DNA from: Senegalimassilia anaerobia JC110
GTDB lineage: Bacteria > Actinomycetota > Coriobacteriia > Coriobacteriales > Eggerthellaceae
NCBI RefSeq assembly: GCF_000236865.1
Contig: NZ_HE611014.1
Coordinates: 693,937 to 757,936, forward strand
Reading direction: 5' to 3'
Length of the DNA: 64,000 nucleotides
In this document: positions 1 to 20,579 of the stretch, piece by piece
Layout of the letters: each line of letters starts with the position of its first letter
Position numbering within the stretch: position 1 is the first letter of the stretch
Program-made: the position numbers and the translations under genes
Notes under the pieces: generated by a model
Told to the model about the DNA's origin: nothing
Seen by the model: only the letters and a program-made list of their open reading frames with translations
The model's database searches: none

Positions 1-1
1 C

Positions 2-1048
2 CGCGCCGCGGGGTCGAAGGGCGCCGCCTCCGCGATCGCGGGCGCGGTCTCGGGCGCCGCGCCCGCCCTGCTCGGGGCGGTGGCCGGCATCGTGGCCTTC
101 GTCGCCTGCGCGCTCGCCGTCGCGCAGCTGCTGAGCGCGCTGTTCGGCTTCTGGGACGACGCGGCCTCCAAGCGGGGCCTCGAGGGGCTGCCGCCCTACA
201 TCACCTACGAGATGGTCGAGGCGGCGCTCGAGTGCCAGGAGGAGTACGGGCACCCGGCGGGCTGCACCATAGCGCAGATCATCCAGGAGTCCGGCCAGGG
301 CGACCGCATGAGCCAGCTCGCAGAACGCGACCACAACCTCTTCGGCATGAAGTGGTGGTCGGGCTACGCGGGCTGCCCCGAGGTGGCCGGCAAGGCGAAC
401 TGGGCCACCAGCGAGGAGTACGTGCCCGGCGAGCACACCCAGATCACGGCGAGCTTCATCCGCTTCACCGGCGACGCCGAGTGCATCCGCTTCCGCAGCA
501 GGGTCTTCCTGCAGGCGGAGCGCTACTCGGGCAACGCCCTCATCCGCGAGGCGGTCGAGAGGCGCGACTCGGACAGGATGGCCGAGGGGCTCAAGGACGC
601 CGGCTGGGCGACCGACTCGTCCTACGTCGAGTCCCTGAAGTCGATCATGGCGCAATGGGGCCTCTACAGGTTCGACTCCATGACGGTCGAGGACCTGAAG
701 GACGCATCCGCGAGCGGGAACGCGATCGTCGAGGCGGCGTACAGCCAGCTCGGCGTGCCCTACGTGTGGGGAGGCTCGACCCCCGGCAAGGCGCTCGACT
801 GCAGCGGACTCACGCAATACTGCTACGCGCAGGCGGGCATCCGCATAAGCCACTACACGGGTTCCCAGTACGAGGAGCTCAGGCGCATACCGCTCTCGGA
901 GGCGAAGCCCGGCGACATCCTCTACCGCTCGGGCCACGTGGCCATCTACATCGGCGACGACAGGTACATACACGAGCCGCGAACGGGCGACGTGTGCCGC
1001 ATAGCGAGCGGCATCGGCAGCTTCAGCTGCGCGCTCACCGCGAGATAG
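2..1048 (+). CDS. ICE cell-wall hydrolase, NlpC/P60 (5' end outside window)
   Basis: Peptidoglycan hydrolase of a conjugation module; it would open the wall for the mating channel. The frame is open from base 2, so the gene starts upstream of the window; GTG 80 is only an internal possibility. An Ala-rich hydrophobic segment is followed by a glucosaminidase-like region (about residues 60-205 counted from 80, with the E of IIQESGQGD and NLFGMKWW), then an NlpC/P60 domain with Cys in LDCSGLTQ, His in GHVAIYIG and a third polar residue near YIHEPR. Domain order and neighbours match CD1108-type proteins of Tn1549-like elements (family knowledge). It is followed 9 bases later by a secreted protein gene, so probably the same operon. 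Exact glycosidase specificity is unsure. Confidence 0.8.
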   Translation, partial: RAAGSKGAASAIAGAVSGAAPALLGAVAGIVAFVACALAVAQLLSALFGFWDDAASKRGLEGLPPYITYEMVEAALECQEEYGHPAGCTIAQIIQESGQGDRMSQLAERDHNLFGMKWWSGYAGCPEVAGKANWATSEEYVPGEHTQITASFIRFTGDAECIRFRSRVFLQAERYSGNALIREAVERRDSDRMAEGLKDAGWATDSSYVESLKSIMAQWGLYRFDSMTVEDLKDASASGNAIVEAAYSQLGVPYVWGGSTPGKALDCSGLTQYCYAQAGIRISHYTGSQYEELRRIPLSEAKPGDILYRSGHVAIYIGDDRYIHEPRTGDVCRIASGIGSFSCALTAR

Positions 1049-1057
1049 GAGAAACCA

Positions 1058-1777
1058 ATGCAGGGAAAGTCAAGGGTCATGGCCGCCGTCGCGGCAAGCG
1101 CGCTCACCGTGGCGCTCGGCGCGGGCGCGGCGCGCTGCGCCATCGCCCCGCAGGAAGGCGCGCAGGATAGTCCACAGGAGCAAGAGCAGCCCGCGGCTGC
1201 AGGCGCCGACGCGGCAACCGGGAAGGCCACCTCGGGCGCCGAGGCGCTCTGGAACACCGCATGGACGGGCGCCGACGACCCGACAGCCACGCTGCGGATC
1301 GTCGAGGGCGCCATGGTGGAGAGCGCGGGCGGCACCGAGCGCGCCTGGTTCTTCTCGGCCGAGGAGCCCTCCGAGGCCGGCGGCGTGCTCAGCATACCCA
1401 TCGAGGTCAAGGGAACCGGCGACAAGGCGGGAGGCCTGTCGCTCATCCAGGTCTCGGGCGACGGGGGCGCCCGCACCCTGGCATGCGACCTCCTGACGCA
1501 GGCCTACGCGCCCCAGAAGGCGCAAGTCGGAGCGTTCTCCGTGACCGGCGCCGACGACCGCCTCTCCGAGGCGCTTGGCGCAGACGTCGCCGCCATCGAG
1601 GACGTCGTCGCCAGGAAGGCGGCGGAGGTGTCCCCGCAGGCGACGGGAGCCACCTGGGACAAGGAGGTGTGGCTCGACTACGCCGGAAACGTCGCGTCGA
1701 CGACCTTCACGCTCGACGACCCCGCCTCGACGGTGGTCACCGTGGTCTCGCGCGGCGGCTCGCTGGAGGCGATGTAG
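1058..1777 (+). CDS. Secreted conjugation-module protein, unknown function
   Basis: 239 residues. The start ATG follows AGGAGAAACC closely. An N-terminal signal peptide (basic MQGKSR, then an Ala/Val-rich core to about residue 27) is followed by a Gln/Ala/Glu-rich linker and a soluble domain of about 180 residues with no motif I recognise. It lies between the wall hydrolase and the VirB6-like channel gene, with 2 bases to the latter, so co-expression and a role at the cell surface in DNA transfer are inferred. Codon use matches its GC-rich neighbours. Confidence 0.7.
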   Translation: MQGKSRVMAAVAASALTVALGAGAARCAIAPQEGAQDSPQEQEQPAAAGADAATGKATSGAEALWNTAWTGADDPTATLRIVEGAMVESAGGTERAWFFSAEEPSEAGGVLSIPIEVKGTGDKAGGLSLIQVSGDGGARTLACDLLTQAYAPQKAQVGAFSVTGADDRLSEALGADVAAIEDVVARKAAEVSPQATGATWDKEVWLDYAGNVASTTFTLDDPASTVVTVVSRGGSLEAM

Positions 1778-1779
1778 CC

Positions 1780-2781
1780 GTGCGGGCGCTTGAATCGCAA
1801 CGCCGAAGGGCGTTCGCCATCTCCGCCGCGACGGCATTCGCCCTCTGCGCGCTCCTGCTCGTCCCCGCGCAGCCGGCATACGCCGACATAGCCGGGGACG
1901 TCAACGAGTGGCTGTGCGGCCTTCTGCGCGACTGCTGCAACTGGATGTTCAAGGCGCAAACGGGCGTGCTCGGGTCGATCGGCGCGAACGGGATCCTCTC
2001 GGCCGACTTCGCGCACATGCTCACGAGCTCGAGCGACCTGACCATGCACGACGTCGCCAGGGGCGTATGGCAGGCTGCCATCCTGCCGATCGGGTGCGGG
2101 GTGCTCGGCCTGGTCTTCACTCTGAAGCTCATCGAGATCTCCCAGCGCATGGACGGCAGCCAGAGCCTTCCCGGCGTCAAGGAGGTCGTTTTCCTCCTCG
2201 TGTTCTTCGCCGTGTTCCTGTTCCTCATACAGAACAGCTTCGACCTGATGGCGTCGATCTACGAGGTCTGCGGGCTCGCCATCGACCGAGTCGAGGCGCT
2301 CTTCGGCGCCGGAGGCGCGCTCGACCTGCCCGAGGTGTCCGTCGTCACCACCGACGACGACATCCCGTCGCTCATCGCCATGCTCGTCGTGAGCCTCATC
2401 AGCTGGGTCGTGGTGCTGGCGGCCTACGTCGTCGCCCTCGTGGTCTGCTGGGCCCGCGCGCTCCAGCTCTACATCATGGCCGCGTTCGCCCCGATCCCGC
2501 TGGCGTTCCTCGGCATGGACGCCACGCGCCAGATAGGCCTCGGCTACCTGAAGAGCTTCGGGGCGGTCTGCATCGCCGGCGTCATCATCCTCGTGCTGCT
2601 CATATCGTTCCCGCTCGTGCTCGGCGGGCTCACCGGGGCGAACCCCGGGACGGGCACCCCGGCCGACGCGGTCGCAAACGGGCTCACCTACGCGCTGCAG
2701 TACCTGGCCATGTGCGCGCTGCTCATCCTGGCCCTCGTGAAAAGCGGCTCCTGGGCGCGCGACATCGTGAGCGGCTTCTAG
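1780..2781 (+). CDS. VirB6/TrbL-like conjugal transfer membrane protein
   Basis: 333 residues from GTG 1780, two bases after the preceding stop; an apparent longer reading from 1261 only shadows the upstream gene. It has an N-terminal signal-like segment ending near AYADIAGD, a Cys-rich stretch (LCGLLRDCCNW), then five or six hydrophobic helices including a long LVVSLISWVVVLAAYVVALV segment and a conserved-looking APIPLAFLGMD loop. This is the pattern of the VirB6/TrbL channel proteins (CD1112 type) of Gram-positive ICEs, which form the inner-membrane part of the type IV secretion channel. Function rests on topology and context rather than a catalytic motif. Confidence 0.8.
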   Translation: MRALESQRRRAFAISAATAFALCALLLVPAQPAYADIAGDVNEWLCGLLRDCCNWMFKAQTGVLGSIGANGILSADFAHMLTSSSDLTMHDVARGVWQAAILPIGCGVLGLVFTLKLIEISQRMDGSQSLPGVKEVVFLLVFFAVFLFLIQNSFDLMASIYEVCGLAIDRVEALFGAGGALDLPEVSVVTTDDDIPSLIAMLVVSLISWVVVLAAYVVALVVCWARALQLYIMAAFAPIPLAFLGMDATRQIGLGYLKSFGAVCIAGVIILVLLISFPLVLGGLTGANPGTGTPADAVANGLTYALQYLAMCALLILALVKSGSWARDIVSGF

Positions 2782-2890
2782 CGGAAAAGCGAGGAAGGGG
2801 GCGGTCGCCATGAGATAGGGGCGCCGCGCCGGGGCACGCGTCCCGGCGGATGAAGACAAGGACCGATTGAAAACGAAAAGGAGGAAAGAC

Positions 2891-3349
2891 ATGGAAGAGA
2901 GGAAGAACGTGTACCTCTCGCTGCACAAGAGCTTCGTGCGCGAGGGCATCGAGTACACCGACCGCGCGACCGGCGAGGCCAGGACCTTCAACTCGGCGAC
3001 CCTTCCCAAGGGCACCGTCGTCGACGGCGTGGACGTGGGAGGCTACGAGTTCAGCCCCATGTTCGTTAACGAGAGCCGCTTCAAGGGGGCCGACTTCCGA
3101 GACATACCGCTGCTCGCGAACCGCGAGGTGTGGCTGAGGAAGACGGTGATGGGCCCGGACGGCCAGCCCGAGCTCGACGAGGGCGGCCGCGCGGTCAAGG
3201 ACACCGTGAAGGTCATGCCGGCGCAGCTCAAGGAGGCCGTTGACGCAGGGCGCTCGCGCTACCTCGCGGAGCGCGCCGAGCACGCCCGCCAGGCGAGCCG
3301 CGCCGCCGAGCACGAGGCGCCCCGCGCACAGCGAAGCGTCGAGAGATAG
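2891..3349 (+). CDS. Conjugation-module protein of unknown function
   Basis: 152 residues starting MEERKNVYLS; this ATG has GAGGAAAG just upstream and is preferred to an in-frame ATG at 2867. No signal peptide or membrane segment. The first two thirds look like a compact beta-rich domain (TFNSATLPKGT, YEFSPMF, VWLRKTV), ending in a charged Arg/Ala/Glu helix. It lies between the VirB6-like gene and the adhesin in the same orientation, so it belongs to the transfer operon. I do not recognise a family. Confidence 0.65.
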   Translation: MEERKNVYLSLHKSFVREGIEYTDRATGEARTFNSATLPKGTVVDGVDVGGYEFSPMFVNESRFKGADFRDIPLLANREVWLRKTVMGPDGQPELDEGGRAVKDTVKVMPAQLKEAVDAGRSRYLAERAEHARQASRAAEHEAPRAQRSVER

Positions 3350-3361
3350 GGAGGCGGAAAG

Positions 3362-6103
3362 ATGAACGCAGCGAAAGACTGCACCCTGCAGGAAAAGCTC
3401 CTCCGATGCGCCATGGCGCTCATCCTGGCGGCGGGGGCGCTGCTCGCCTCCGTGGCGGCCTCGCCCGCCTACGCCGCGCCGAGCACGGTAGACGTGTCCA
3501 TCGGCGGCAAGATCCCCTACGGCGGCTTCGCCACCACGTGGATGAGCGCCGACGGCAACATCGCCTACTGCGCCGAGCCCTCGTCCCCGACGCCCGCGCC
3601 GGGCTCCTACTCGACGAGCCCCGTGCCGAGCGGCGACGTGACAGCGGCGATCTGGTACTCGTTCGGCTCTCCCGGCTTCGACGCGTCGATGTTCCCGGGC
3701 AGCTGGTACGACGGCGGCGGCTGGGACGACGCGAAGTACGCCGCGGCGAGCCATGTGCTCATCGCCTACGCCTACTCTGGGTCCGAGTCGGCTGCCACGC
3801 ACGGCACGAGCGCCGAGTTCGCCTCCTGGGCGAAATCCGAGCTGATCGGCGGGACCTTCGCCAAGATGAAGGCGGGCGCCGGCAAGGTATCCGCCGGGTT
3901 CGAGGCGTTCTGCGTCAGGACCGGCGGCGGCTCCCAGACGCTCGTGAGCTTCAGCTGGTCCACGGGCGGAGTCAAGGTCGCCAAAACGGACTCCGAGGCG
4001 GGCGCGGAGCCCCAGGGCGACGCCTCGCTCGACGGCGCGAGCTTCTCCGTCGTTAACGAGACCGGCCGCTACGTGCTGGTCGGCGGCAAGTACTACGCCG
4101 ACGGCGAGGTATGCGCCACGATCAAGACCGCGCCCGAGGACGGGTCGCACGTCGCCGCGACCGGCGCCGACGCACTTCCCGCAGGCAATTACCGCATCGT
4201 CGAGTCCGGCGCGCCCGAGGGCTACGACGCCAGCGACGCCTCCGTCACGTTCACCGTGAAGGCCGACGAGGTGCGCGACCTCACGGGCGACCCCGTGACC
4301 GACGAGGTCTTCCGCGGCGGCGTGCAGGTGACCAAGTCCGACAAGGAGCTGCAGGCGTCCGAGGCGCTCGCGGGCAGCGGCCACAAGGAGGCGCCTGGCG
4401 AGCACCCCGGCCTCGACGGGATCGAGTTCACCGTCACGAACCGCTCGGCGCACAAGGTCCTCGTCGACGGCGAGTGGCGCGAGCCGGGCGAGGCCGTGGC
4501 CACGCTGACCACCGCATGGAACGACGAGGCCGGCGCCTACACCGCGCAGACCGCGGCCGACGCACTGCCGTACGGGACCTACGACGTGCGGGAGACGGCG
4601 ACGAACGGGAGCTACCTGCTGACCGACGGCGAGCCCCGCACCTTCGAGGTCCGCGCCGCTGGCGAGATCGTGAGCGCCTCCGCGGACGGCGCCGCGCTCG
4701 AGTTCCGCGACCAGGTGGTGCGCAACGACCTCGAGCTCTCCAAGAAGAGCGAGGCCGACAACGCCGGCCTCATGGTCCCGTTCGCCATCGAGAACGCGGC
4801 CACCGGCGAGATTCACGTGCTGGTCACGGACCGCAACGGCGACGCGTCGACCGCGAGCAGCTGGAACAGGCACTCGAGGGACACCAACGCCAACGACGCC
4901 CTGCTCGGCCATGAGGGCCCGATCGAGCCCGCCGACATGGACCCGAAGGCCGGCATCTGGTTCTCGCTCGGCGAGGACGGCTCCTCGGCGCCGGTCGACG
5001 ACTCGCTGGCGGCACTGCCGTACGGCGCCTACACCATGACCGAGCTGCGCTGCGAGGCCAACGAGGGCCTCGAGCTCATCACCAGGAGCTTCTGGATCGA
5101 GCGCGACTCGACGGTCGCGAAGGCCGTGTGGATGGGCCTCGACGACCAGGAGGGCCCGCGCATCTCCACCACGGCAAAGGACGGGGCGGATGGCGACAAG
5201 GACGTCTCGGCCGACGCCGAGGCCAAGGTCGTCGACGCGGTGGCCTACGAGGGGCTGAAGGCCGGCGAGGCGTACGAGCTCTCGGCAACCCTCGTCGACA
5301 AGGCGACCGGCGAGCCCGTGGCCGACGCCTCGGGCAAGCCCGTGGAGGCCAAGGCCCAGTTCGAGCCCGCGCTCTCGACCGGCAGCCATGACGTCGAGAT
5401 CTCCTTCGACGCGAGCCTGCTCGGCGGCCGCGACCTGGTCGTGTTCGAGAGCCTTCGCAAGGACGGTGCCGAGGTGGCGTCGCATGCGGACCTCTCCGAC
5501 GAGGGACAGACCGTCCACGTCGCCGTCGAGGTGGGCACCCAGGCGGCGGACGCCGCCGACGGCGACCAGGTAATCGAGGCCGGCAAGGCCAAGGTCGTCG
5601 ACACGGTGGCCTACAAGGGCCTCGTCCCCGGCAAGACATACATCGCCGTGGGCACGCTCATGGACAAGGGCACCGGAGAGCCGTTCCTCGACAAGGACGG
5701 CAACGAGGTGACCGCGCGCACGCCCTTCGAGCCCGAGGCGCCCTCCGGCACCGTCGAGGTGACCTTCGAGTTCGACACCGAGGGCCTGGCCGAGGGAGAC
5801 GAGCTCGTCGTCTTCGAGAAGGTCCTGGACTCCGCCGGCAACGTCGTCGCGACCCACGAGGACATCGACTCCGCCGAGCAGAGCGTCGTCGTGGACAACC
5901 CCGACACGCCCGAGGTCCCCGAGGAGCCCTACGCCAAGACCGGGGCCGACGCCCCCGACGGCACCGGCTACGCCGTGGCCGCGGGCATCGCTCTGGCAGC
6001 TGCGGCGGGCGCGGGCGGAGCGCTCGCGTACCGCAAGCGCAAGACGGCCGGCGCAAGCAAGGACGCGGCAGCCGAAGAGCCTGCCGAAGAGCCGGAAGAG
6101 TAG
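3362..6103 (+). CDS. Cell-wall-anchored adhesin with SpaA-type and VaFE repeats
   Basis: 913-residue surface protein, probably a contact adhesin for mating. A signal peptide (to about residue 39, SPAYAAPS) is followed by a thioester-domain-like region around Cys70 (AYCAEP), three SpaA/Cna-B type prealbumin folds (about 205-325, 325-460, 460-595; e.g. LDGASFSV, LDGIEFTV) and two VaFE/T-Q ester type repeats (about 600-850; KVVDAVAYEGL and KVVDTVAYKGL). The C terminus has YAKTG at residue 857, a hydrophobic helix, RKRK, and an unusual 15-20 residue Glu/Ala tail. The sorting motif departs from LPXTG. The class B sortase gene follows directly and is the likely anchoring enzyme. The start has AGGGAGGCGG upstream. 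Confidence 0.9.
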   Translation: MNAAKDCTLQEKLLRCAMALILAAGALLASVAASPAYAAPSTVDVSIGGKIPYGGFATTWMSADGNIAYCAEPSSPTPAPGSYSTSPVPSGDVTAAIWYSFGSPGFDASMFPGSWYDGGGWDDAKYAAASHVLIAYAYSGSESAATHGTSAEFASWAKSELIGGTFAKMKAGAGKVSAGFEAFCVRTGGGSQTLVSFSWSTGGVKVAKTDSEAGAEPQGDASLDGASFSVVNETGRYVLVGGKYYADGEVCATIKTAPEDGSHVAATGADALPAGNYRIVESGAPEGYDASDASVTFTVKADEVRDLTGDPVTDEVFRGGVQVTKSDKELQASEALAGSGHKEAPGEHPGLDGIEFTVTNRSAHKVLVDGEWREPGEAVATLTTAWNDEAGAYTAQTAADALPYGTYDVRETATNGSYLLTDGEPRTFEVRAAGEIVSASADGAALEFRDQVVRNDLELSKKSEADNAGLMVPFAIENAATGEIHVLVTDRNGDASTASSWNRHSRDTNANDALLGHEGPIEPADMDPKAGIWFSLGEDGSSAPVDDSLAALPYGAYTMTELRCEANEGLELITRSFWIERDSTVAKAVWMGLDDQEGPRISTTAKDGADGDKDVSADAEAKVVDAVAYEGLKAGEAYELSATLVDKATGEPVADASGKPVEAKAQFEPALSTGSHDVEISFDASLLGGRDLVVFESLRKDGAEVASHADLSDEGQTVHVAVEVGTQAADAADGDQVIEAGKAKVVDTVAYKGLVPGKTYIAVGTLMDKGTGEPFLDKDGNEVTARTPFEPEAPSGTVEVTFEFDTEGLAEGDELVVFEKVLDSAGNVVATHEDIDSAEQSVVVDNPDTPEVPEEPYAKTGADAPDGTGYAVAAGIALAAAAGAGGALAYRKRKTAGASKDAAAEEPAEEPEE

Positions 6104-6127
6104 CGGCGCCGCATCGATACCGAGCCG

Positions 6128-6155
6128 GAGGCCCTGGGCGCCCGCCCGGGGCCTC
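6128..6155 (+). other. Hairpin between adhesin and sortase genes
   Basis: GAGGCCC pairs with GGGCCTC, and the inner TGGGCG/CGCCCG extends the stem. No T-run follows, so it may limit read-through or protect the adhesin mRNA end rather than terminate. Confidence 0.4.
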
Positions 6156-6175
6156 CCCTGCGAACGGGGGAGGAC

Positions 6176-6907
6176 ATGAACAAAGGGAAAGCCGCCACGG
6201 CGCTCGCCGTCGCCGTGGCGTTGCTGGCGCTGGCGGCGCTCGCCGTCCTGCCGCAGCCCGAGAGGAACCCGTACGGGGTGCACGAGGTACCCGCAACGGA
6301 AGAGGACGCGACTATGGAGGTGAAAGAGACGGGAGGCGGAATCGACTGGGACGCCCTTCCCGCCTCCGTCGTCGCATGGGTGCGAGTGCCAGGCACGACC
6401 GTCGACTACCCGATCATCCAGGGCCGGCAGGAATCGCCCGACTTCTACCTCACGCACGACGTCGGCGGCGAAAGATCCGCATGGGGCGCTCCCTACATCG
6501 ACGCCGGGTGCGCGCAGGGCGCCGAGAGCCCGCTCGTCATCGTCTACGGGCACCACATGTCCGACGGCACCATGTTCGCGCCGCTCGCGCAGTACTCGTC
6601 GCGCGGTTTCGCCGAGGGGCACCGCACCATCCGGGTCTACACCCGCGAGAAGGAGATCGAGCTCGAGGTCTTCGCCGTGGACGTGGTCGACGCGAGCTCG
6701 GAGGGCAAGCGGACCGACTTCGCCGACGCGGCCGAGCTCGACGCCTACCTCGGGGACAAATTGTCCCGGTGCGAGGTCGTCCTGGAAGAGCCGTCGGACG
6801 TCGCGCAGGCCTGGGCCTTCGTGACGTGCAGTTACCAGACGAGCAACTCGCGCACCGTCGTCTACGCGAAGGAGGTGGAAGGATGGGATTCGCGCCCTTC
6901 GGAATAG
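6176..6907 (+). CDS. srtB: Class B sortase
   Basis: 243-residue membrane-anchored transpeptidase that would cleave the adhesin's sorting motif and join it to the wall or to another subunit. It has an N-terminal signal anchor (residues 7-25), the class B opening VAWVRVPGTTVDYPIIQG, catalytic His in VYGHHMSDG, catalytic Cys in FVTCSYQTSNSR and catalytic Arg in that last motif. The start ATG 6176 is preceded by GGGGGAGG. It directly follows its presumed substrate gene. A 31-codon gene overlaps its 3' end. Confidence 0.9.
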   Translation: MNKGKAATALAVAVALLALAALAVLPQPERNPYGVHEVPATEEDATMEVKETGGGIDWDALPASVVAWVRVPGTTVDYPIIQGRQESPDFYLTHDVGGERSAWGAPYIDAGCAQGAESPLVIVYGHHMSDGTMFAPLAQYSSRGFAEGHRTIRVYTREKEIELEVFAVDVVDASSEGKRTDFADAAELDAYLGDKLSRCEVVLEEPSDVAQAWAFVTCSYQTSNSRTVVYAKEVEGWDSRPSE

Positions 6908-6978
6908 GGCTCCTCATGGGGCTCCTCACGCTCACTGCCTACGCATGCTGCGCAGTCGGCGACGACGACCGGGACTAG
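6883..6978 (+). CDS. 31-residue membrane microprotein
   Basis: A short reading frame overlapping the end of the sortase gene in another frame. ATG 6883 is preceded by a near-perfect AAGGAGGTGG site, which is the main evidence that it is translated. The product is one hydrophobic helix (GFAPFGIGLLMGLLTLTAY), a CC pair and an acidic end (GDDDRD). It could be a small partner of the sortase or of the transfer channel. No family is recognised. Confidence 0.55.
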   Translation: MGFAPFGIGLLMGLLTLTAYACCAVGDDDRD

Positions 6979-7015
6979 TTGCCGAAAAACGAAATCGCAA
7001 CTGAACCGAACGATC

Positions 7016-7045
7016 AAGCCCCTCGCTCCGTCGGACGAGGGGCTT
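7016..7045 (+). terminator. Hairpin ending the transfer/sortase operon
   Basis: AAGCCCCTCG and CGAGGGGCTT form a perfect 10-bp stem with a 10-base loop, 37 bases after the microprotein stop. It lacks a clear T-run, so it is a weak or factor-assisted terminator. Confidence 0.5.
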
Positions 7046-7153
7046 GCACATGGTGGGATAATGAAGAGCACATGAGACGTGTCGTGCGTGCCGTGTTGCA
7101 TCGGCTGCGCATGAGCGCCTTACACAAGGTTCGTTTACGTCAGGAGATACAGG

Positions 7154-9091
7154 ATGGCGCTCAAATTCGATCTCGGGGAAGCCCTGTCCCAAGCTGCGCA
7201 CGCCGCAGGAGAGGTGGCAAAAGGCGCATCGGCAACTGTCGAGTCCGCCGCCAAAGGCGTCGCGAATGCGGCCGAGGGCGCGGGGAACGCCATCGTCGAT
7301 ACGGCCGCCTCGGCATCCGAAGCCGTCGGAAGCGCCATGTGCTCGGCTGCGGAAGGCGTGTCGAGCGCCGGCGAGCAGATCGCGTCGTCCGATGCGGGCA
7401 AGGCGATCGCAGGGGCTGCGAACGCGGTAGGCGGAATCGCCGTCGGCGCCGCAATGGGTTTGGCCCAGGGGGCGTCGTCCCTTGCATCCGGCGCGGCGTC
7501 GACCGTCGAGGGCGGCATCAACGCCATCAAGGAGAACTCGTTCTCCGCGCGCCTCCGCAAGGCGCGCATCAAGGGGTTCCGTGACGGCATCAAGCAGGGG
7601 GCCTACCTTGCGGGCGAGAAACGTTACAACTTCATCTACGCCTACGTGGCGACGCTCTGCTTCCTGATGCGCTGCGACGGCGATTTCTCCCATGAGGAGC
7701 AGGAGTGGCTCGAGGACGGCCTCGACTACCTCAAGCTGGACGGCGGCCTTCCGGACGACGTGAAGGCGAAGGTGCAGGCAATCGCGGACAACGAGGGCTT
7801 GTCCTTCGACCAAGTCAAGGACTGCCTGGACAACGTGAGCATCGTGTCGCTGGGCTCCATCGCCGAGCAGCTGCAGGTCGCCGCGGCGGCGGACGGCGAG
7901 GTGACGGAGGAAGAGGAGCACGCTTGCAGGCTCTTCGCCGACTACATGGCCGCGAGGGCGGCATGCGTGGCGGTTGACGAGAACTGGGCCGAGCAGGCAG
8001 TCGAGAAATCCGTTCGCGAGTACGGCGAGAGCCTCGAGCGCATTGACCGTGAGTTCAAGGAGCGGACGAGGCTGCAGGACGCCGACGCGGCCTTCGTCGT
8101 CGCCGCGACCATGCTCCAGGTCGCCCGCGTGCTCGTCATCAACTCCCTGACGGAGGTCGAGCGGGCGGGAGCGGGCAACGCCAAGGAGGACGCCCTGCAC
8201 AGCTTCCAGGGCCGCGTTTTCTCGGGCTTCGACGACGGGGCTCCGGCGGAATCGGGCCGCCTGTTCGCCTCCAAGAGCCACATCCTCTCCTCGCGAGGCG
8301 TGCCGTACGACGCGACACGTTACGAGGCTGAGAACCTCAAGATATTCAAGGGGGCGAACCACCGGTTCGCGACCCTCGGCCACGACCCGGTGCTCGGCCT
8401 CGTGTTCGGGACCTCGAACATCATGACGAACAGCATCACCTGCGTGAAGGACGCCAACGTCTTCGGGATCGGCGCGCGGATCCCCGCGACCTACTCGGTC
8501 TCCTACGACGCATTCGGGAAGAACCCGCTGATCGGGGCGCCCACCGGGACCGTGGAGATGCTGGTCGCGGCGGGAAGGCGCATCGTGAGCGAGCCGGATG
8601 CCGCCGCGGCGGCCCTGATCAAGCAGCTGGTCCACATCGGCACCGACCTCTACACGCCGTGCGGGATACAGATCCCGTTCGCCAACCTCGTCCTCGACAA
8701 GGCGCACACCGAGGCCCTCACCAAATACGTCAGCACCGGCGACATATTGAAAGTCGGCATGCAGGCGGGCATGACGGTGCTCATCAACTGGCTGATAGCG
8801 GCGCTCCACGGCTGCTCCCTGATATTCAAGGACGACGGGTCGGACTACTGCACCGAGATGTACCAGGCGCGCACCAAGAAGATCATCCTCATCTCCGACA
8901 CCATCGCGACCTCGAGCAGCATCGTGCAGGCATCGATCACGAAGAACCCCAAGTGTCTCGATCTCGGAGGCGCGGCGGTGCTCGTCTACCGACTGTTCTC
9001 GGATGCTCGCTTCGTCGCCAAGCTCAAAGAGGAGTTCCTCCAATCGGAGCTTGACAAGATCTACGACGAGCGAGCCAAGGGGCTACTCTAG
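7154..9091 (+). CDS. ICE cargo protein with Ala-rich N terminus and TerB-like domain
   Basis: 645 residues, with AGGAGATACAGG before the ATG. Residues 1-130 are an Ala/Gly/Ser amphipathic repeat (AAxxVAxGAxxA pattern, like LEA or apolipoprotein-type helices). Residues about 150-260 look like two TerB-type alpha-helical units, each with an acidic turn (RCDGDFSHEEQEW; AADGEVTEEEEH). Residues about 370-645 form a domain with GHDPVLGLVFGTSNIMT, a helical IKQLVHIGTDLYTPCGIQIPF stretch and a hydrophobic ITKNPKCLDLGGAAVLVYRLF segment. I recall similar C-terminal domains in many uncharacterised bacterial proteins. It stands alone, convergent with the mobilisation operon, as cargo genes often do. Defence or envelope stress is a guess. 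Confidence 0.75.
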   Translation: MALKFDLGEALSQAAHAAGEVAKGASATVESAAKGVANAAEGAGNAIVDTAASASEAVGSAMCSAAEGVSSAGEQIASSDAGKAIAGAANAVGGIAVGAAMGLAQGASSLASGAASTVEGGINAIKENSFSARLRKARIKGFRDGIKQGAYLAGEKRYNFIYAYVATLCFLMRCDGDFSHEEQEWLEDGLDYLKLDGGLPDDVKAKVQAIADNEGLSFDQVKDCLDNVSIVSLGSIAEQLQVAAAADGEVTEEEEHACRLFADYMAARAACVAVDENWAEQAVEKSVREYGESLERIDREFKERTRLQDADAAFVVAATMLQVARVLVINSLTEVERAGAGNAKEDALHSFQGRVFSGFDDGAPAESGRLFASKSHILSSRGVPYDATRYEAENLKIFKGANHRFATLGHDPVLGLVFGTSNIMTNSITCVKDANVFGIGARIPATYSVSYDAFGKNPLIGAPTGTVEMLVAAGRRIVSEPDAAAAALIKQLVHIGTDLYTPCGIQIPFANLVLDKAHTEALTKYVSTGDILKVGMQAGMTVLINWLIAALHGCSLIFKDDGSDYCTEMYQARTKKIILISDTIATSSSIVQASITKNPKCLDLGGAAVLVYRLFSDARFVAKLKEEFLQSELDKIYDERAKGLL

Positions 9092-9110
9092 GCACCAGGT
9101 GCCTTCGTTC

Positions 9111-9206
9111 TCACATCACCCACTTGAACACGGCGCGGAACAGCCAGACGAAAAAGCCCAGCGTGACCTTAAGCGCCGCCATGAGGAACCTACCAAGCCT
9201 CTTCAT
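9111..9206 (-). CDS. 31-residue basic membrane microprotein
   Basis: Last gene of the parA-relaxase operon. ATG 9206 is preceded by GGGGTGA and overlaps the end of the upstream gene by 17 bases. The product (MKRLGRFLMAALKVTLGFF and then VWLFRAVFKWVM) is a single cationic amphipathic or membrane helix. Overlap and ribosome site support translation. Role unknown; it could be a small membrane partner of the mobilisation machinery. Confidence 0.5.
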   Translation of the reverse strand: MKRLGRFLMAALKVTLGFFVWLFRAVFKWVM

Positions 9207-9744
9207 CGACGTCACCCCAATCTTCCTTGACCTTGCGGGCGCCCTCGTCGGCGCCCTCTTCCTTCTCTTCCGCGAGCAGCCTCGCCAGCTCATCCGGCAC
9301 GCCCGGGACCTCCGCCCTCCCCAGCGCGCGCTGAAGGTCCCTTATCTGCGACTTCAGCGGTTTTGAGGGAGGGCCCACGTGCTCGCGGTAGCAAGCGGAA
9401 ATTGCAGCCGCGTCGCACAGGTACCCTCGCACCCGGGCGAACGCCTCGTCGCCGTCGAGCAGGACGCGGCGGGCGCGCCCGAGCTCTGCCTCCGAGGCCA
9501 GCATGAAGCGCCACCCGCGGGACCTCCGCGCGGCCGGGATGCCGTCCGCGGGCGCCTCGGCGCGCCAGTCGTCGCGCACCTGGTGCCAGTTCGCCGTGAG
9601 CCAGAGCCCCTTCTCGGGCTCCTCGCGCATCTCGAGCTCGAACTCCGTGAGCATGTTCGCGCCGGAGAACGGCGAGCCCTCCGTGAACGAGAGCGTGTCG
9701 AACAGCGTCGTCCTGCCGCCCTCGTACTCTATCCTCACCATCAT
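9190..9744 (-). CDS. Mobilisation-operon protein, unknown function
   Basis: 184 residues from ATG 9744, whose ATGA overlaps the relaxase stop codon, so it is translationally coupled. The N-terminal half looks beta-rich (MVRIEYEGGRTTLFDTLSF), the middle has WRFMLASEAELGRARRVL, and the C terminus is a charged Glu/Lys helix ending in an acidic DVDEEAW. No catalytic motif is seen. Coupling suggests a job in DNA processing or in controlling the relaxase. Confidence 0.65.
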   Translation of the reverse strand: MMVRIEYEGGRTTLFDTLSFTEGSPFSGANMLTEFELEMREEPEKGLWLTANWHQVRDDWRAEAPADGIPAARRSRGWRFMLASEAELGRARRVLLDGDEAFARVRGYLCDAAAISACYREHVGPPSKPLKSQIRDLQRALGRAEVPGVPDELARLLAEEKEEGADEGARKVKEDWGDVDEEAW

Positions 9745-11012
9745 CTCCGGCCCCTTTCCCTGCGATGCTCCTGCTGGGCCCGCTGGCGTTCGACGGCGAG
9801 GATGCGCTGTTGCTCGTCCTCGCGGCGCCCGTCGCGCGAGCTTCCTTCGGCAGCACCGCGCCCGCGATCGTCCCCGTAGCGGGTTTTGAGCGGCATGAGC
9901 TCGTTCATCGCCATGTAGTCGCGCGCCGCCTCGAGTCGACGGTAGCCCTCGCCGCCCGCCTGGCCGCGACGCTCGAGCGTCGCCATCCTGAGACCGAACT
10001 CCTCGATGGACTCGACGTCGAACTTCGCGCAGGTCTCGAGCGCCGAGGAGAGCCTGCTCAGCTCCGAGAGGTCGTTGAGCTCGAGGGCTCGCTCGGCGGC
10101 CTCGCGGATGCGCGCGGCGCTCGCGTCCGTGGGACGGTAGGCGCCCCCGCGCTCGAACCGCCGGCGGAGCATCTCCTTGCCGTAGACGAACCCCAGGCGC
10201 TCGCCGCTGACCTTCTTGGACGGCTCCTCGGCCAGGCTGAACACCCAGTCGTCCCGCCGCGCCTTGGCCGAGTTGTCGGCGACGTGCACGCCCAGGGCGT
10301 CGAGGACGCCGAGGAACTCCGCCTCGTCGCGCGCCGTGGTCTTGGCGAGCGCGACGCGGGCGCGGATGTCGCCGACCCACGAGTAGCCGCCCGAGCGCAT
10401 GATCTCCTTCTCGGCCCGGCCCAGGTAGACGCTCCTGCGGCTCCTGGGCCCGCCCGCACCTGCCCGCCCGCGCGCCTTCGACGGCGATTCGGGAGCTCGG
10501 TCGTTGGAGAGCCCCGACAGCCCGCGCTCGCGCGCCATGTCCTGCAGGTCTCGGTTGAGGTCCTCGGGGTGCTGGGTCTGCATGCGGTAGCCGGTGCGGA
10601 GGTTGGCGTTATTCACGACGATGTGCGCGTGCGGTATGCCGCGGGCGTTGTCGTCGTGGTACACGATGGCGATCTCGTGGTCGCCGAAGTGCTTGAGAGC
10701 CCACGAGCACGCGAGCTCGCGCAGCGCCGCCAGGTCGATATCGTCGCCGGGGTCCGGCGAGAGCACGAAGTGCTTGAACGTCCGCGCGGGCTTTCCCCTC
10801 CAGGGGGCGTCCGTGCCGAAGGCGGCGCGCGTGGCGTCCATCTCGGCGTCCCAGGCGCAGGCCTCCTTGGCCTCGTTTCCCAGTGCGCCGGCATCGCGCT
10901 CGTCGTAGCTCAGGTTGAACAGGTCGCGCGCCAGGGCGCGGCCTCCCTTCTCGAGGTAGCGGCGGATGCCACCCGTCGAGCCGTGGCCGCTTATCGGCTT
11001 CAGGATCGGCAT
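9741..11012 (-). CDS. Relaxase, HUH mobilisation nuclease (PF03432-type)
   Basis: 423 residues. Nicks oriT and leads the single strand into the recipient. It opens MPILKPISGHGSTGGIRRYL with a candidate catalytic Tyr at about residue 19, then TFKHFVLSPDPGDD and the metal-binding pair in IPHAHIVVNN, preceded by AIVYHDDN; together these are the relaxase motifs. The C-terminal 200 residues are charged and helical (FVYGKEMLRRRFERGGAYRP). Start 11012 is chosen because the motif-bearing N terminus begins there; it overlaps the mobC stop by 13 bases. The downstream partner gene overlaps its stop. Confidence 0.88.
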   Translation of the reverse strand: MPILKPISGHGSTGGIRRYLEKGGRALARDLFNLSYDERDAGALGNEAKEACAWDAEMDATRAAFGTDAPWRGKPARTFKHFVLSPDPGDDIDLAALRELACSWALKHFGDHEIAIVYHDDNARGIPHAHIVVNNANLRTGYRMQTQHPEDLNRDLQDMARERGLSGLSNDRAPESPSKARGRAGAGGPRSRRSVYLGRAEKEIMRSGGYSWVGDIRARVALAKTTARDEAEFLGVLDALGVHVADNSAKARRDDWVFSLAEEPSKKVSGERLGFVYGKEMLRRRFERGGAYRPTDASAARIREAAERALELNDLSELSRLSSALETCAKFDVESIEEFGLRMATLERRGQAGGEGYRRLEAARDYMAMNELMPLKTRYGDDRGRGAAEGSSRDGRREDEQQRILAVERQRAQQEHRRERGRR

Positions 11013-11446
11013 GGCGAGCCCTCCACGAGCGAGTCGGCACCGATGCGACCGAGCTCCGCCGCCATCTCGCGGGCCGCGCCGTTCACGTCGGCGAGCTCTC
11101 GCTCGATCGTCGGGATGCTCTCCGCGACGAGGTCCCGGTCGACGTGCCCGTGGCGGGCGTGGAAGTTGATGAGGTTCATCGCGTGCACTGCCTGGTTGTA
11201 GTGGTAGCCCCACTTCGTGAGCTCCCGAGACATCGACCAAAGGGCCCTGCGGTCCACGAGTATGCGGTGCTCGTCTCCAGCGTTGGCCTCCGTCGACAGC
11301 GGTATGCGAACGAGGTAGCGCAGGTACTCTGACTTGCTGAGGCCGGCGCGCTCGCACCGCTCGCAGAGCGCGTCGTAGTCGCCTCCCTCCATGCGGAACG
11401 TGACGCGGCGCTCCTTGCCTTTGGCGGCGCCGGCTTCCTCTTCCAT
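11000..11446 (-). CDS. mobC: MobC-like relaxosome protein
   Basis: 148 residues, ATG 11446 with AAAGGAA upstream. The N-terminal part (RRVTFRMEGGDYDALCERC, then GLSKSEYLRYLV) is a ribbon-helix-helix DNA-binding fold; the C-terminal half (SRELTKWGYHYNQAVHAMN) is the classic MobC signature. It would bind oriT and help the relaxase open the nic region. It overlaps the relaxase start, so the two are coupled. Confidence 0.85.
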   Translation of the reverse strand: MEEEAGAAKGKERRVTFRMEGGDYDALCERCERAGLSKSEYLRYLVRIPLSTEANAGDEHRILVDRRALWSMSRELTKWGYHYNQAVHAMNLINFHARHGHVDRDLVAESIPTIERELADVNGAAREMAAELGRIGADSLVEGSPCRS

Positions 11447-11656
11447 GGCGGATTCCTTTCCTCGGGCCCGCCGCGCGGCGGGCGCGTCTCTCTGGGGGCG
11501 CGGGGGATCCCCCGCAGGCGGTGGCCCGGCCCGGGCGCCGCCTCTGGGACCGGGCCTCGCGAAAGCGGGCTCCCAAACGGCCCGCGGCATGACGGGTCCG
11601 AAGCCGCCCGTTCCCCAAGTGCTATGGACGCCCGACGCGATGTCGGACGCCATAGG
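11447..11656. other. Candidate oriT region between parB and mobC
   Basis: This gap directly upstream of mobC and the relaxase is the usual place for oriT. It holds a perfect 18-bp palindrome at 11466-11483 (GCCCGCCGCG|CGGCGGGC) and the large inverted repeat at 11622-11655. No nic consensus was identified, so this is a positional inference. Confidence 0.4.
11622..11655. repeat. Inverted repeat after parB
   Basis: CTATGGaCGCCCGAC and GTCGGACGCCATAG pair with one bulge and one G-T pair around a 5-base loop. It starts 1 base after the parB stop codon on the minus strand. It is either an operon-internal attenuator or the relaxosome recognition arm. Confidence 0.55.
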
Positions 11657-12613
11657 CTACTTGCTGGATTTCGAACCTGAGGCCCTTCTGCGGCGCTTTC
11701 GGGCATCGCTGCCCGCATCCGCGTACGGGGCGGTCATGAGCGCCATCTCGCGCAGCAGCGAGAGGTCGGCCGCGCTCGGGCTCTCGGGCGGGCTCTCCAG
11801 GAAGTCGGCGACGAGCCTCGCGGCCTTCGCGATGCGCCCGTCGGGGCCGGCCTGCGTTTCGCTCTCGCTCCTCACGTAGTCGGAGAGCTCCCGCTTGGTG
11901 CGCCGCCAGGGCTCCATGGCGGCGTGCATCTCCGCCTGGCGCTCCTTCGGCATGCCCGCGAGCGAGCGCACCGCCTCGGCGCTGAGGTTGCCGCGGTCGG
12001 CCTCGGCGGCCCACTCGGGCGAGAGGTCCTCGGCGATGCGGCGGGCCAGCCTCTCCTCGCGCGCGATGGTCTTGCCGGAGACCTTGCGGCCCGTCTGCCG
12101 CTCGATGATGGCGGCCTTCACGTCGTCGACGCGCATGCCGGAAAGCGACGGGTCCTCGGAGCGCAGGCGCACGGCGTCGCCCCTGAGCGCCTCGGTCGCT
12201 GCGGCGCGCTCGGTCACGGTGAGCGCGCGGGTGAAGTAGTTCGCGGCGTGGAGCAGCGTCACCGCCCGCTCGTCGTCGATGCCCTCTATCACGCGGCAGG
12301 GCATCCTCTCGTAGGCGGGGTCGTCCTTGGCGAGCAGCGCGTAGGCGGCCTTGCGGCGGTGCCCGGAGACCATCTGCCACGAGCCGTCGCCGACCTTGCG
12401 CACCAGCGGCAGGTCGGTGAGGCCGTCCTCGCGTATGGACTCGGCGAGCTCGGCTATGCCGGCCGGGTCCATGGAGTACGCGGCGTTCGCCGGGTGGTCG
12501 GCGATGTCGGCCACCGCTATCTCGGACACCGGGTAGCGCCCGCGGGTGCGCGACGCGCCGTCGAGAAGCCCCGTGATGGTGAAGCCCGCGGCCACCTGGC
12601 TAGGCGAGCTCAC
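11657..12613 (-). CDS. parB: ParB-family partition protein
   Basis: 318 residues from GTG 12613, overlapping the parA stop by 14 bases. The ParB/Srx nucleotide-binding domain is clear (IAELAESIREDGLTDLPLV, MVSGHRRKAAYALLA), followed by a helix-turn-helix region (VSGKTIAREERLARRI) and a charged C terminus with RKRRRR. With ParA it would segregate or stabilise the excised circular ICE. No parS site was recognised. Confidence 0.85.
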   Translation of the reverse strand: MSSPSQVAAGFTITGLLDGASRTRGRYPVSEIAVADIADHPANAAYSMDPAGIAELAESIREDGLTDLPLVRKVGDGSWQMVSGHRRKAAYALLAKDDPAYERMPCRVIEGIDDERAVTLLHAANYFTRALTVTERAAATEALRGDAVRLRSEDPSLSGMRVDDVKAAIIERQTGRKVSGKTIAREERLARRIAEDLSPEWAAEADRGNLSAEAVRSLAGMPKERQAEMHAAMEPWRRTKRELSDYVRSESETQAGPDGRIAKAARLVADFLESPPESPSAADLSLLREMALMTAPYADAGSDARKRRRRASGSKSSK

Positions 12614-13364
12614 GGGACACCTCGTCGGCGAGAGCCTCGTAGTCGCGCGCGGGGCGGCTCCCCGGCTCGAAGGCCGCCACCGGCTTCCACTGCCAGCTGC
12701 CCTCGCAGACCTTGCTGCTCGCGTGTATGACCGTCTCGAACTGCTCGCCCGGGAAGAACCCGTCGAGCACGGCCGCGCCCGTGGCCTCGGCGTTGGTCAT
12801 GCGGCCGGGCACGCAGGTGCGCAGTATCTTCCATCTGGGCGTGGGCATGCGCAGGGCGTCTGAAATGGAGCGCGTCGCCTCCACGGTGAGCGCCGTGCCG
12901 CGCATCACGGTGGAGTCGAGCTTCACGGGGATGACGACCATGCCGCCCTCCGCTGCGGCGAGGTAGGCGTTGAAGGCAAGCCTGCGCATCACGGGGCTGC
13001 AGTCGATGAGGCAGACGTCGTAGGAGCCCGAGGCGTCGTCGAGGGCGAACTTGAGGCGCTGCTCGCGCAGGAGCATCTCGTTCTGGTCGACGAGGTCGAT
13101 GGTCGAGGCCACCACGTCGAGGCCCTCCCCGGCGGCGTAGGCGACCTCCTCCACGGGCGCGCCGCCGTAGAGCAGCTCGACCGAGGTGCGCCGCTCGGAG
13201 GCGGCGCGGTCGTAGAGGCCGAAGAAGTCGGTGGCCGACGCCTGCGGGTCGAGGTCGACGAGCAGGGTCCGAAGGCCCCGGGCGGCGAAGATGGCCGCCA
13301 GGTTGACGGCGGTCGTCGTCTTGCCGACGCCTCCCTTGTAGTTGGAAATGGCTATCGTGCGCAT
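12600..13364 (-). CDS. parA: ParA-type partition ATPase
   Basis: 254 residues. Deviant Walker A NYKGGVGKTTTAVNL near the N terminus, VDLDPQASATDFFG, and Walker B DVCLIDCSP define a ParA/Soj ATPase. ATG 13364 has GAGAGGA upstream; a longer frame to 13706 has no support. It is first gene of the leftward parA-parB-mobC-relaxase operon. Its promoter region carries two copies of the ICE operator, so it is probably repressed by the XRE protein at 20580. Confidence 0.9.
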   Translation of the reverse strand: MRTIAISNYKGGVGKTTTAVNLAAIFAARGLRTLLVDLDPQASATDFFGLYDRAASERRTSVELLYGGAPVEEVAYAAGEGLDVVASTIDLVDQNEMLLREQRLKFALDDASGSYDVCLIDCSPVMRRLAFNAYLAAAEGGMVVIPVKLDSTVMRGTALTVEATRSISDALRMPTPRWKILRTCVPGRMTNAEATGAAVLDGFFPGEQFETVIHASSKVCEGSWQWKPVAAFEPGSRPARDYEALADEVSRELA

Positions 13365-13446
13365 GGGTCGCGTCCTCTCTAGCGTGGGGCGCGCCTCGCC
13401 GCATCCGGTCCGGCGCGCCCCGAGTCTCGGAGCGTCGGGACAAAAC

Positions 13447-13513
13447 CGTACGAATTTGTCCGACAAGCGGAGTGTACCACGAAAACGTACGTATATGTAC
13501 GTTTTCGTGGTAC
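13447..13513. promoter_or_regulatory. parA operator region: 40-nt palindrome and two CGTAC-N6-GTACG sites
   Basis: 13474-13513 is a perfect inverted repeat with 17-base arms around GTATAT. Its centre, 13486-13501, reads CGTACGTATATGTACG, identical to the site at 20458-20473. A weaker copy lies at 13447-13462 (CGTAC, N6, GTCCG), about 39 bases away centre to centre. The position upstream of parA implies control of the partition-mobilisation operon. No clear -35/-10 pair could be fixed. Confidence 0.75.
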
Positions 13514-13567
13514 AGGGTCGGATTTCGGGGAAGTCCGGCCCCGGGAGCCCGGGGCCGGGCGCGCCGC

Positions 13568-13939
13568 CTAGGAGAGCGGCTCCATCTCGCCGAAGCAGTT
13601 GATGTGGTGGCGAAGGAGCGCTCGGTTCTCCTTGACGACCATCATCGCCACCTCGTCGAAGCGGACCGGGGTGTCTGCGTAGTCGTCGCTGTTCCCCGCG
13701 AGCCACGTCGCCGCCAGCGCCTCGCGCAGCCCGCGCGCCCTGTGGGCCTCGGGGAAGCCGTCCGTTCCGATCCGGACCGTGGCGTCGACGAAGACCAGGG
13801 TCCCGTCCTCGTCCACCGCCACGAGGTCGATCCCGCCGATGCCCTCGGGCCCCTGCCAGGCCTCGTCGACGATCTCGTAGCCCTTGCGCTCGAGGAAGGC
13901 CCTGACCGCGCCCATCGCCTTTTCCTTCATGTCGTTCAT
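13568..13939 (-). CDS. YraN-like (UPF0102) protein, nuclease residues altered
   Basis: 123 residues; GGAGCAAGGC precedes ATG 13939. It fits the YraN restriction-endonuclease-like fold: AFLERKGYEIVDEAW, then IGGIDLVAVDEDGTLVFVDATVR. In the family the last strand normally carries E-x-K (VEVKxR); here it reads D-A-T, so the catalytic Lys is missing. It may bind DNA without cutting, or use another residue. It lies 54 bases beyond the parA operator palindrome, leftward but separated from parA by it. Confidence 0.7.
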   Translation of the reverse strand: MNDMKEKAMGAVRAFLERKGYEIVDEAWQGPEGIGGIDLVAVDEDGTLVFVDATVRIGTDGFPEAHRARGLREALAATWLAGNSDDYADTPVRFDEVAMMVVKENRALLRHHINCFGEMEPLS

Positions 13940-14484
13940 GCCTTGCTCCTTAGACTCTGAGGCCCGCCCCTGTGGCGTGCCTTGCGCCGCGTGAGTCGCA
14001 TGCAGCGCGGGCGTGCCTGCAAGGGAGGAAGCGAAGTCGGGCGTGGTTATAGAAATCTCCCGACGTCAGTTTTTCGCGTTGTTCGCGCGCGCAGCGCATG
14101 GGGCGAAGAACCCGAAAAAGTGTCGCGGCCCTTGCGGGCCGCCTGCCGGCGTGCGACCCTGCGCGTCCAAGGAGCGCCGGGGCGAGTTTCGGGTCGGAGG
14201 GGCGGAGGCGTGCGGCATGGAATCGGGCGTGGGCGCCGAAACCCTCCGGGCATGGGATGCGGCCCGTCGGCGGTCCTGGGCTCCCGCGGGACTTGGCGAC
14301 GACGTCGCGGCGGGGACGGAGGCGGGATCCCGAGTCGTGGTGCCGCGGTATGAGTCGGGACAGATGGCTTTCCCGCGCCGCTTGCGGTCGATATGTGCAC
14401 GGGACCGTGGGCAGCGAGATGGTTCTCCGCATGGAACGGCTACGGTGCTGCGCGACACGTCTGTTGAGAGAAGGAGGCGAGCTG
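13940..14484. other. Gene-free stretch of the ICE
   Basis: About 545 GC-rich bases between divergent genes. Open frames here have skewed Arg/Pro/Ala composition and no ribosome sites. It probably holds promoters for the flanking genes. No repeat or RNA recognised. Confidence 0.5.
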
Positions 14485-14754
14485 ATGTTGAGCCACGAAG
14501 AGAAGTTGGAGCGCATCGAGCTCATCGATGCCGTGTGCGATGCCGGGAGACTGGCGAGGGGCCTGGACCAGCTGCTCGAGTCCCTGGCTCACGCCGACCA
14601 GCTGGACCCGCTCGACGTCGAGGGGATCCTGGTCCTGAGGTCTATAAGCGAGAGGTGTGCCGAGCGCATCGGCGACGCGGCGCGCATCCTGGAGGCTCAG
14701 AACGAGGTCCTCTATGCGGAGGAGCGGGCCAAAGTCAAACCGCGCGATAACTGA
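14485..14754 (+). CDS. Small helical ICE protein, unknown
   Basis: 89 residues starting MLSHEEKLERIEL; AAGGAGGCGA lies just upstream of ATG 14485, so this is preferred to the longer frame from 14098. Predicted all-helical with alternating acidic and hydrophobic residues (LARGLDQLLESLAHADQLD), no Cys pair motif and no membrane segment. Possibly a small regulator or an anti-defence protein; nothing in the sequence decides. Confidence 0.6.
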   Translation: MLSHEEKLERIELIDAVCDAGRLARGLDQLLESLAHADQLDPLDVEGILVLRSISERCAERIGDAARILEAQNEVLYAEERAKVKPRDN

Positions 14755-14931
14755 GGAACGAAACCCGGTCCGGAAACTGTTCCTTGATTCCGGCCGGATG
14801 ATCTTCTCCGCCGCCCGGTGTCGCATTGTGTCCGAGCGGCTGATGTCCCCCTATTCCCAGTGCCGCGGCGTACCGCTGCGTTATAATTCAGAAAACGCAT
14901 TTGTATTGCATTTCGAGGGATAGAGGCGCGA

Positions 14932-15144
14932 ATGTCTAATGGCTATAAGGAGCTCATCAAGGGTAACCCCGGCGAGACCGAGATCAGGAGCTTCCTGGTA
15001 AACGGCGACCAGGTATCTGTGACCCTGCGCATCCCCGACACCCTGCGCGACGCGGCGAAGGAGGAGGCTGCCCTTCGCGGCATGAGCTTCTCCGCCTTTG
15101 TGCGCACTTGCATGATCGAAGAGCTCGCGAAGAAGGGACAATAG
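14932..15144 (+). CDS. Small ribbon-helix-helix-like regulator
   Basis: 70 residues. VSVTLRIPDTLRDAAKEEA and GMSFSAFVRTCMIEEL match the strand-helix-helix pattern of Arc/CopG-type DNA-binding proteins. A TATAAT at 14882-14887 may be its -10 box. It precedes the methyltransferase stub by 3 bases and may once have regulated that restriction locus. Confidence 0.65.
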   Translation: MSNGYKELIKGNPGETEIRSFLVNGDQVSVTLRIPDTLRDAAKEEAALRGMSFSAFVRTCMIEELAKKGQ

Positions 15145-15147
15145 CCC

Positions 15148-15351
15148 GTGACGGAGCCAATGCACGACATCTCGGTCGAAGGCTTCATAGAGTCCTTCGA
15201 CCGCCGATACCCGACTTTCATTCTCAAGACGTTGCTGTGCGACCGCACTACGGGGCGCAACATCATATGGGCCGACAACGAATACGAGGCCCTAGGCGAC
15301 GGCTACATGGGCGATGACGAGATGACCGTCGAGAATGCTCATGTACGGTAA
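15148..15351 (+). pseudogene. Truncated N terminus of an adenine methyltransferase/restriction protein
   Basis: 67 codons from GTG 15148. The text (FIESFDRRYPTFILKTLLCD, GRNIIWADNEYEALGDGY) resembles the start of Eco57I-like restriction-modification methylases I recall from actinobacteria. The full protein should be several hundred residues with an NPPY motif; here homology stops near MTVE (about 15335) and the frame ends six codons later as composition drops to the AT-richer tet(W) block. So it is a stub left by the insertion. Confidence 0.6.
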
Positions 15352-15940: not shown

Positions 15941-15966
15941 ATTTGGGCCTTGTATGGAGGATAGAC

Positions 15967-20234: not shown

Positions 20235-20235
20235 G

Positions 20236-20439: not shown

Positions 20440-20457
20440 GGCTCCTCCAATCAACAG

Positions 20458-20548
20458 CGTACGTATATGTACGGTTTACAGATTGAGAGTAAACGTACGC
20501 ATCCGTACTGTCAATAGAATTGCGTACATTTGCGTACGCTGATAAGAT
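20458..20548. promoter_or_regulatory. Divergent xis-int / XRE promoters with three operators
   Basis: Leftward promoter: TTGACA (complement of 20509-20514), 17-base spacer, TACTCT (complement of 20486-20491). Rightward promoter: TTGCGT 20520-20525, 17-base spacer, TAAGAT 20543-20548. CGTAC-N6-GTACG operators: 20458-20473 (downstream of the leftward start), 20494-20509 (last base T, in the leftward spacer) and 20523-20538 (in the rightward spacer). This is a lambda-like repressor switch layout; binding by the XRE protein is inferred. Confidence 0.8.
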
Positions 20549-20579
20549 GTGCGGGTACGTAATTCCAGGAGGAGGGCGC

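Follow-up and report, generated by a model that had tools for sequence, protein, structure and literature searches.

The open reading frame at positions 7154–9091 of the window (the whole stretch of 64,000 nucleotides from Senegalimassilia anaerobia JC110 that was analysed) encodes a protein of 645 amino acids. Judged by its sequence, this protein is, with a probability of about 0.6, a membrane-attached, Bunzi-related phage-defence effector of the abortive type that combines a TerB-like regulator with a putative metal-dependent enzyme in one polypeptide.

Results and Discussion

The reading frame is a real gene, as can be seen from its ribosome-binding site, its intact and near-identical copies across genera of Coriobacteriia and its low dN/dS. 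The source genome contains one copy. A contig of 6,266 bases from Enorma burkinafasonensis encodes the protein at 100% identity within a DNA stretch that is 99.95% identical, and full-length copies with 89–97% identity are present in Paraeggerthella hongkongensis, 'Jeddahella massiliensis', Tractidigestivibacter montrealensis and another Coriobacteriia genome (G060), with more distant homologues in two further genera (56% and 39% identity). Comparison with close copies gave dN/dS values of 0.12 (locus L003), 0.20 (L004) and 0.13 (L031) and thus points to purifying selection on the whole protein. The copy in Collinsella vaginalis (L006, 5574–8001) is interrupted near codons 200–225, where some 2.4 kb of other DNA intervene, and is probably inactive. 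A consensus promoter scan found no promoter upstream of the gene, and a 10-bp inverted repeat read directly at 7016–7025 and 7036–7045, where the terminator scan made no call, may separate it from the sortase operon. The protein had no match in NCBIfam or among the PDB sequences and no homologue in phage records; in viral contigs a single-protein scan found 0 homologues versus 22 with an alignment-based scan. The features discussed below are:

7142–7146, + strand: ribosome-binding site AGGAG, 7 nt 5' of the ATG (direct reading)
7154–9091, + strand: single-gene TerB-like/BnzB-like fusion, 645 aa (ORF, ATG at 7154, stop ending at 9091)
7169–7387, + strand: Ala-rich amphipathic helix, LEA/apolipoprotein-like, predicted to bind membranes, residues 6–78 (hydrophobic moment)
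7394–7534, + strand: Gly/Ala-rich hydrophobic segment, a weak counterpart of the Gly-rich segment seen in partner proteins, residues 81–127
7640–7951, + strand: TerB-like domain, residues 163–266 (PF05099, E 3.2e-4, below gathering score)
8009–9088, + strand: BnzB-like domain, mostly helical, residues 286–645 (PADLOC BnzB, relatives, model)
8309–8311, + strand: D386, VPYDA motif, invariant in 60/60 sequences
8360–8362, + strand: H403, HR motif, invariant in 60/60 sequences
8381–8383, + strand: H410, GHDP motif, invariant in 60/60 sequences
8633–8635, + strand: H494, HxxxDxxTxxG motif, invariant in 60/60 sequences
8645–8647, + strand: D498, HxxxDxxTxxG motif, invariant in 60/60 sequences

The one PADLOC match within the protein is to BnzB of the Bunzi system (E 2.2e-26), which aligns residues 380–638 with positions 232–502 of the 504 in the profile. 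We compiled 60 BnzB-like domains by profile searches covering Coriobacteriia, Clostridia-type genomes, viral contigs and plasmids. The mean column identity of their alignments is just 25–29%, and D386, H403, H410, H494, D498 and also G415 are identical in every one of them, with P412 kept in 59 (98%) and P508 in 97%. The GHDPVLG motif pointed out in the initial annotation therefore marks a truly conserved site, with H410 and G415 found in all relatives and P412 in all except one. The five invariant aspartate and histidine residues are best explained as a putative metal site of an enzyme, probably a hydrolase.

When folded alone, residues 281–645 gave a mostly helical model with one set of strands (pLDDT 84.6, pTM 0.67). 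The full-length model is poor outside this domain, namely in the N-terminal 280 residues, with a pLDDT of about 40–60 in the TerB-like part. Foldseek found no match to PDB entries at E 0.001 or better for either model, the best VIA-align Z of 8.0–8.4 lies within the noise for helical proteins, and the full-length model matched no viral structure. Neither structure search thus gave a convincing match, including to a housekeeping family, which the initial annotation had named as the outcome that would speak against an effector.

The main rival to the hydrolase reading is a pore-forming or otherwise membrane-disrupting defence effector that is not an enzyme. Its amphipathic helix, Gly-rich stretch and hydrophobic helices would oligomerise in the membrane on infection, and a metal held by the aspartate and histidine residues would have a structural or regulatory role. 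The helices at residues 312–330 and 540–558 lie close to the transmembrane threshold, and the loose VIA-align matches are mostly to membrane helical bundles, which may mean nothing; however, five invariant residues amid such divergent sequences look catalytic, and we consider a pore former unlikely.

A possible enzyme class for the BnzB-like domain is suggested by YdjM (DUF457, PF04307), a family described as predicted membrane-bound metal-dependent hydrolases. The 30 YdjM sequences compared share with BnzB-like domains the order D ... HR ... H ... HxxxDxxTxxG, the spacing within HxxxDxxTxxG and the character of a membrane protein, whereas the distance from HR to H is 5 residues in YdjM and 7 in the BnzB-like domain, and the fusion protein differs from YdjM by a much longer domain in which no N-terminal TH motif was seen. 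A Pfam search of the protein up to E 1 returned no YdjM row. Alignment of the BnzB-like and YdjM profiles with hhalign gave a score of 24.6 at an HHalign probability of just 4.6%, best aligned on HxxxDxxTxxG, compared to maxima of 17.7 in 60 block shuffles and 15.0 in 30 column shuffles and to 15.4 for the reversed profile. The PAP2 and HD control profiles, both built from related genomes, reached 12.1 and 13.4 and were at shuffle level. As the score exceeds the controls yet is weak on its own, we do not claim membership in YdjM and regard the similarity as a modest lead backed by controls, not as proof of homology.

The N-terminal half begins with the Ala-rich region that had been annotated as LEA/apolipoprotein-like. 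This description holds, as the hydrophobic moment at 99 degrees is 4.5 for residues 6–78 compared to 1.7 ± 0.4 after shuffling, and none of 500 shuffles came as high. Separate partner genes of BnzB-like relatives at L039, L041 and L042 open with a similar Ala-rich stretch. Matches to phage tape-measure proteins in PHROGs cover the region of the Ala-rich helix and were set aside as a probable effect of composition. The following Gly/Ala-rich segment (KD 1.59 at residue 85) passes the scan for Gly-rich segments in the window copy, and the sister copies L029, L031, L032 and L033 fail it. Residues 163–266 match TerB (PF05099) in Pfam with 21.4 bits at a cut-off of 24.4, and since this is below the gathering score we call the domain TerB-like; five out of seven fusion homologues also match TerB (E up to 0.1). 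Thus the TerB-like character that had been proposed is retained on one weak match, and the 'paired' acidic turns become a single TerB-like domain, as this one match spans them. Tellurite resistance finds no support, the weak TerB match being all there is in its favour.

All these parts also occur outside the fusion protein. Among 61 rows of BnzB-like genes, some of them redundant or fragmentary, 39 have a gene with a Gly-rich hydrophobic segment on the same strand within two places, compared to 10 of 583 other genes in the same stretches. The BnzB-like gene and its Gly-rich partner frequently overlap at stop and start, many of the overlaps being 4 bases long, and in L135 and L136 both parts are found in one protein. 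The Gly-rich C-terminal part of L136 and the partner in L129 match the PADLOC candidate PDC-M09A, the partners at L007 and L041 match BnzA in part, and in L133 a separate TerB-like gene lies directly upstream of the BnzB-like gene. Because partner genes elsewhere carry matching parts, the window protein looks like a fusion that unites sensor-like, membrane-binding and core parts kept on separate genes in related predicted defence systems. A pore former would be favoured by the Gly-rich hydrophobic segment being the most constant partner feature and by the glycine-zipper proteins found in other defence operons (PMC11090510), but this part mostly resides in a protein of its own and has a weak form in the fusion protein.

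Three further operons show the variety of partners. On pNP40, a classical lactococcal phage-resistance plasmid, an unlabelled operon (L046, 8854–11543) encodes a WYL regulator, a BnzB-like protein and a protein of 486 amino acids that ends in an EF-Tu C-terminal domain (PF03143, E 7e-23; domain 3), which could act as a sensor or decoy. Plasmid pLLI11B (L047, 8869–13364) carries a canonical Bunzi system under a WYL regulator (BnzA E 5e-128, BnzB E 3e-150) and in the same stretch a second BnzB-like gene of clade I with a coiled-coil partner, a relative of the clade of the fusion protein. In Eubacterium eligens (L048, 8854–12661) a dynamin-family, LeoA-like GTPase comes after the BnzB-like gene, a WYL regulator accompanies the pair, and L125 looks similar.

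The gene had been described as lone cargo of an integrative and conjugative element (ICE) between transfer modules, and its surroundings agree with this. Upstream we found PrgI and an ATPase (L045; DUF87 in Pfam, VirB4-like by eye), an NlpC/P60-glucosaminidase, an adhesin and a sortase, and downstream NikA-like, relaxase, ParB, ParA and tyrosine integrase genes. The surface protein at 3362–6907, which precedes the sortase and contains thioester, SpaA and T-Q ester-bond domains, is likely the adhesin of the element. The same ICE carries a ribosomal-protection tetracycline-resistance gene at 15943–17886 (tet(W)-like by eye) and next to it, at 17950–18729, a protein with a GmrSD C-terminal domain (PF07510, E 9e-18) and an N-terminal half that was not recognised, possibly what is left of a type IV restriction system. 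Within 19164–23206 the integrase adjoins guaA, the 3' end of which (21611) faces the element, and the ICE is likely inserted at this end.

The fusion gene moves apart from this ICE and was found in three different genomic settings. Paraeggerthella shares at least positions 1–15335 of the window, Jeddahella and Tractidigestivibacter (L004/L005) share 6570–9315 only and G060 (L031) 6925–9070 only. In the Jeddahella/Tractidigestivibacter setting (L029) McrBC follows the gene, and in G060 type I specificity and restriction subunits lie about 3–7 kb away. Several BnzB-like relatives also have defence genes nearby, namely GmrSD-type (L041), HEC-05 and AriA/GajA-like homologues (L042), HsdR with PDC-S15 (L131), IetAS (L037) and PDC-S27 (L034). 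As the choice of these neighbours was made by eye, ahead of the PADLOC scan and without a matched background, we claim no figure for enrichment. Other relatives lie on prophage-like contigs between phage genes (e.g. L054) or on Lactococcus plasmids. The earlier proposal that a defence function is likely is thus supported by the strong BnzB match and by the defence genes that this survey revealed beside several relatives.

The same settings bear on the idea that the protein serves maintenance of or exclusion by the ICE, or protects from envelope stress such as tellurite, with no role against phages. The position between the ICE sortase and relaxase, the TerB-like domain and the LEA-like N-terminus would fit such a factor, but the gene occurs without this ICE in L004/L005 and L031, where it is near McrBC and type I restriction-modification genes, and BnzB-like relatives are found on prophages, plasmids and islands that have no conjugation genes close by. 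We therefore regard this function as improbable.

For the preferred reading, a defence effector with a putative hydrolase site, we propose the following model. The N-terminal helix, the Gly-rich stretch and the C-terminal hydrophobic helices would anchor the protein at the inner face of the cytoplasmic membrane, and the TerB-like domain might keep it silent or sense infection. D386, H403, H410, H494 and D498 would bind metal and form a YdjM-like hydrolase site. Upon a trigger by the phage this domain might attack a membrane-associated substrate, perhaps of the phospholipid or polyprenyl-phosphate type, and the resulting membrane damage would stop the infected cell from releasing phage.

Comparison with known systems

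The Bunzi anti-phage system was reportedly published by Millman et al. in 2022. It consists of the two genes bnzA and bnzB (PADLOC PDLC03833 and PDLC03834), and its BnzB-type domain has the same invariant aspartate and histidine residues as the fusion protein. Carriage on mobile elements is also common to both, as is TerB, with PF05099 being listed for Bunzi (PMC10952713). Whereas Bunzi needs two genes there is one here, and BnzA is missing: the fusion gene is adjoined by the sortase gene and reverse-strand mobilisation genes, and no BnzA was found next to it or in the source genome, nor in any of 14 control genomes. Where Bunzi has the N-terminal region of BnzA and a Gly-rich segment, the fusion protein has its Ala-rich amphipathic N-terminus. 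In the tree a branch with 100/100 support separates the fusion protein from the canonical BnzB of pLLI11B (L047, 11823–13361), and the TerB-like fusions have one origin (100/99). Next to them in the tree are the closest split relatives, those of L007, L008 and L053, whose partners have no clear TerB.

One might still see a canonical Bunzi system that has lost its BnzA half through decay or relocation, in line with the BnzB match (E 2e-26) and with the TerB reported for Bunzi. This we consider highly improbable, as no BnzA was found in the genome (nor in the 14 control genomes), the fusion protein does not group with the canonical BnzB in the tree, and on pLLI11B a canonical BnzA/BnzB pair and a relative of the clade of the fusion stand side by side and thus are different members. 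As two defining features of Bunzi, BnzA and the clade, were not found, the gene is, on sequence grounds, a Bunzi-related single-gene fusion and not Bunzi itself. The 'undescribed effector' of the initial annotation has therefore to be narrowed: the C-terminal half falls into the same superfamily as the published BnzB, and the features that appear not to have been described before are the fusion of the parts in one gene, the clade of its own and the D/H site with its invariant residues.

A review gives the mechanism of Bunzi as unknown (PMC12926258), and our literature search for a Bunzi mechanism found none. The one-gene version is easy to clone and five residues are named for mutation, so that it becomes directly testable through this gene whether BnzB is an enzyme and whether the membrane is its target. 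Bunzi is now tied through one superfamily to the PADLOC candidate PDC-M09 and to several unlabelled operons, the one on pNP40 among them, and a Bunzi-related cargo is shown on an ICE of gut Coriobacteriia. We tentatively suggest, with somewhat less than even confidence, that the BnzB superfamily might form a new hydrolase class, metal-dependent and membrane-associated, which would be a distant relative of YdjM and in wide use for phage defence together with modular partners, and that the present protein might combine sensor, anchor and enzyme in a self-contained form. The interchangeable modules would then be BnzA, Gly-rich membrane proteins, dynamin-like GTPases and the EF-Tu-domain protein, a grouping that we hold just as tentatively.

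Two further systems can be compared with the fusion protein in single parts. In PDC-M09, a candidate phage-defence system, the M09A component is a Gly-rich membrane protein adjoining a BnzB-like gene (L129), and M09A is not matched by the 645-residue protein. Shango, which consists of a TerB-like protein, an ATPase and a helicase (PMC10250203), likewise has a TerB-like domain within a defence system, whereas the fusion gene has neither a helicase nor an ATPase partner.
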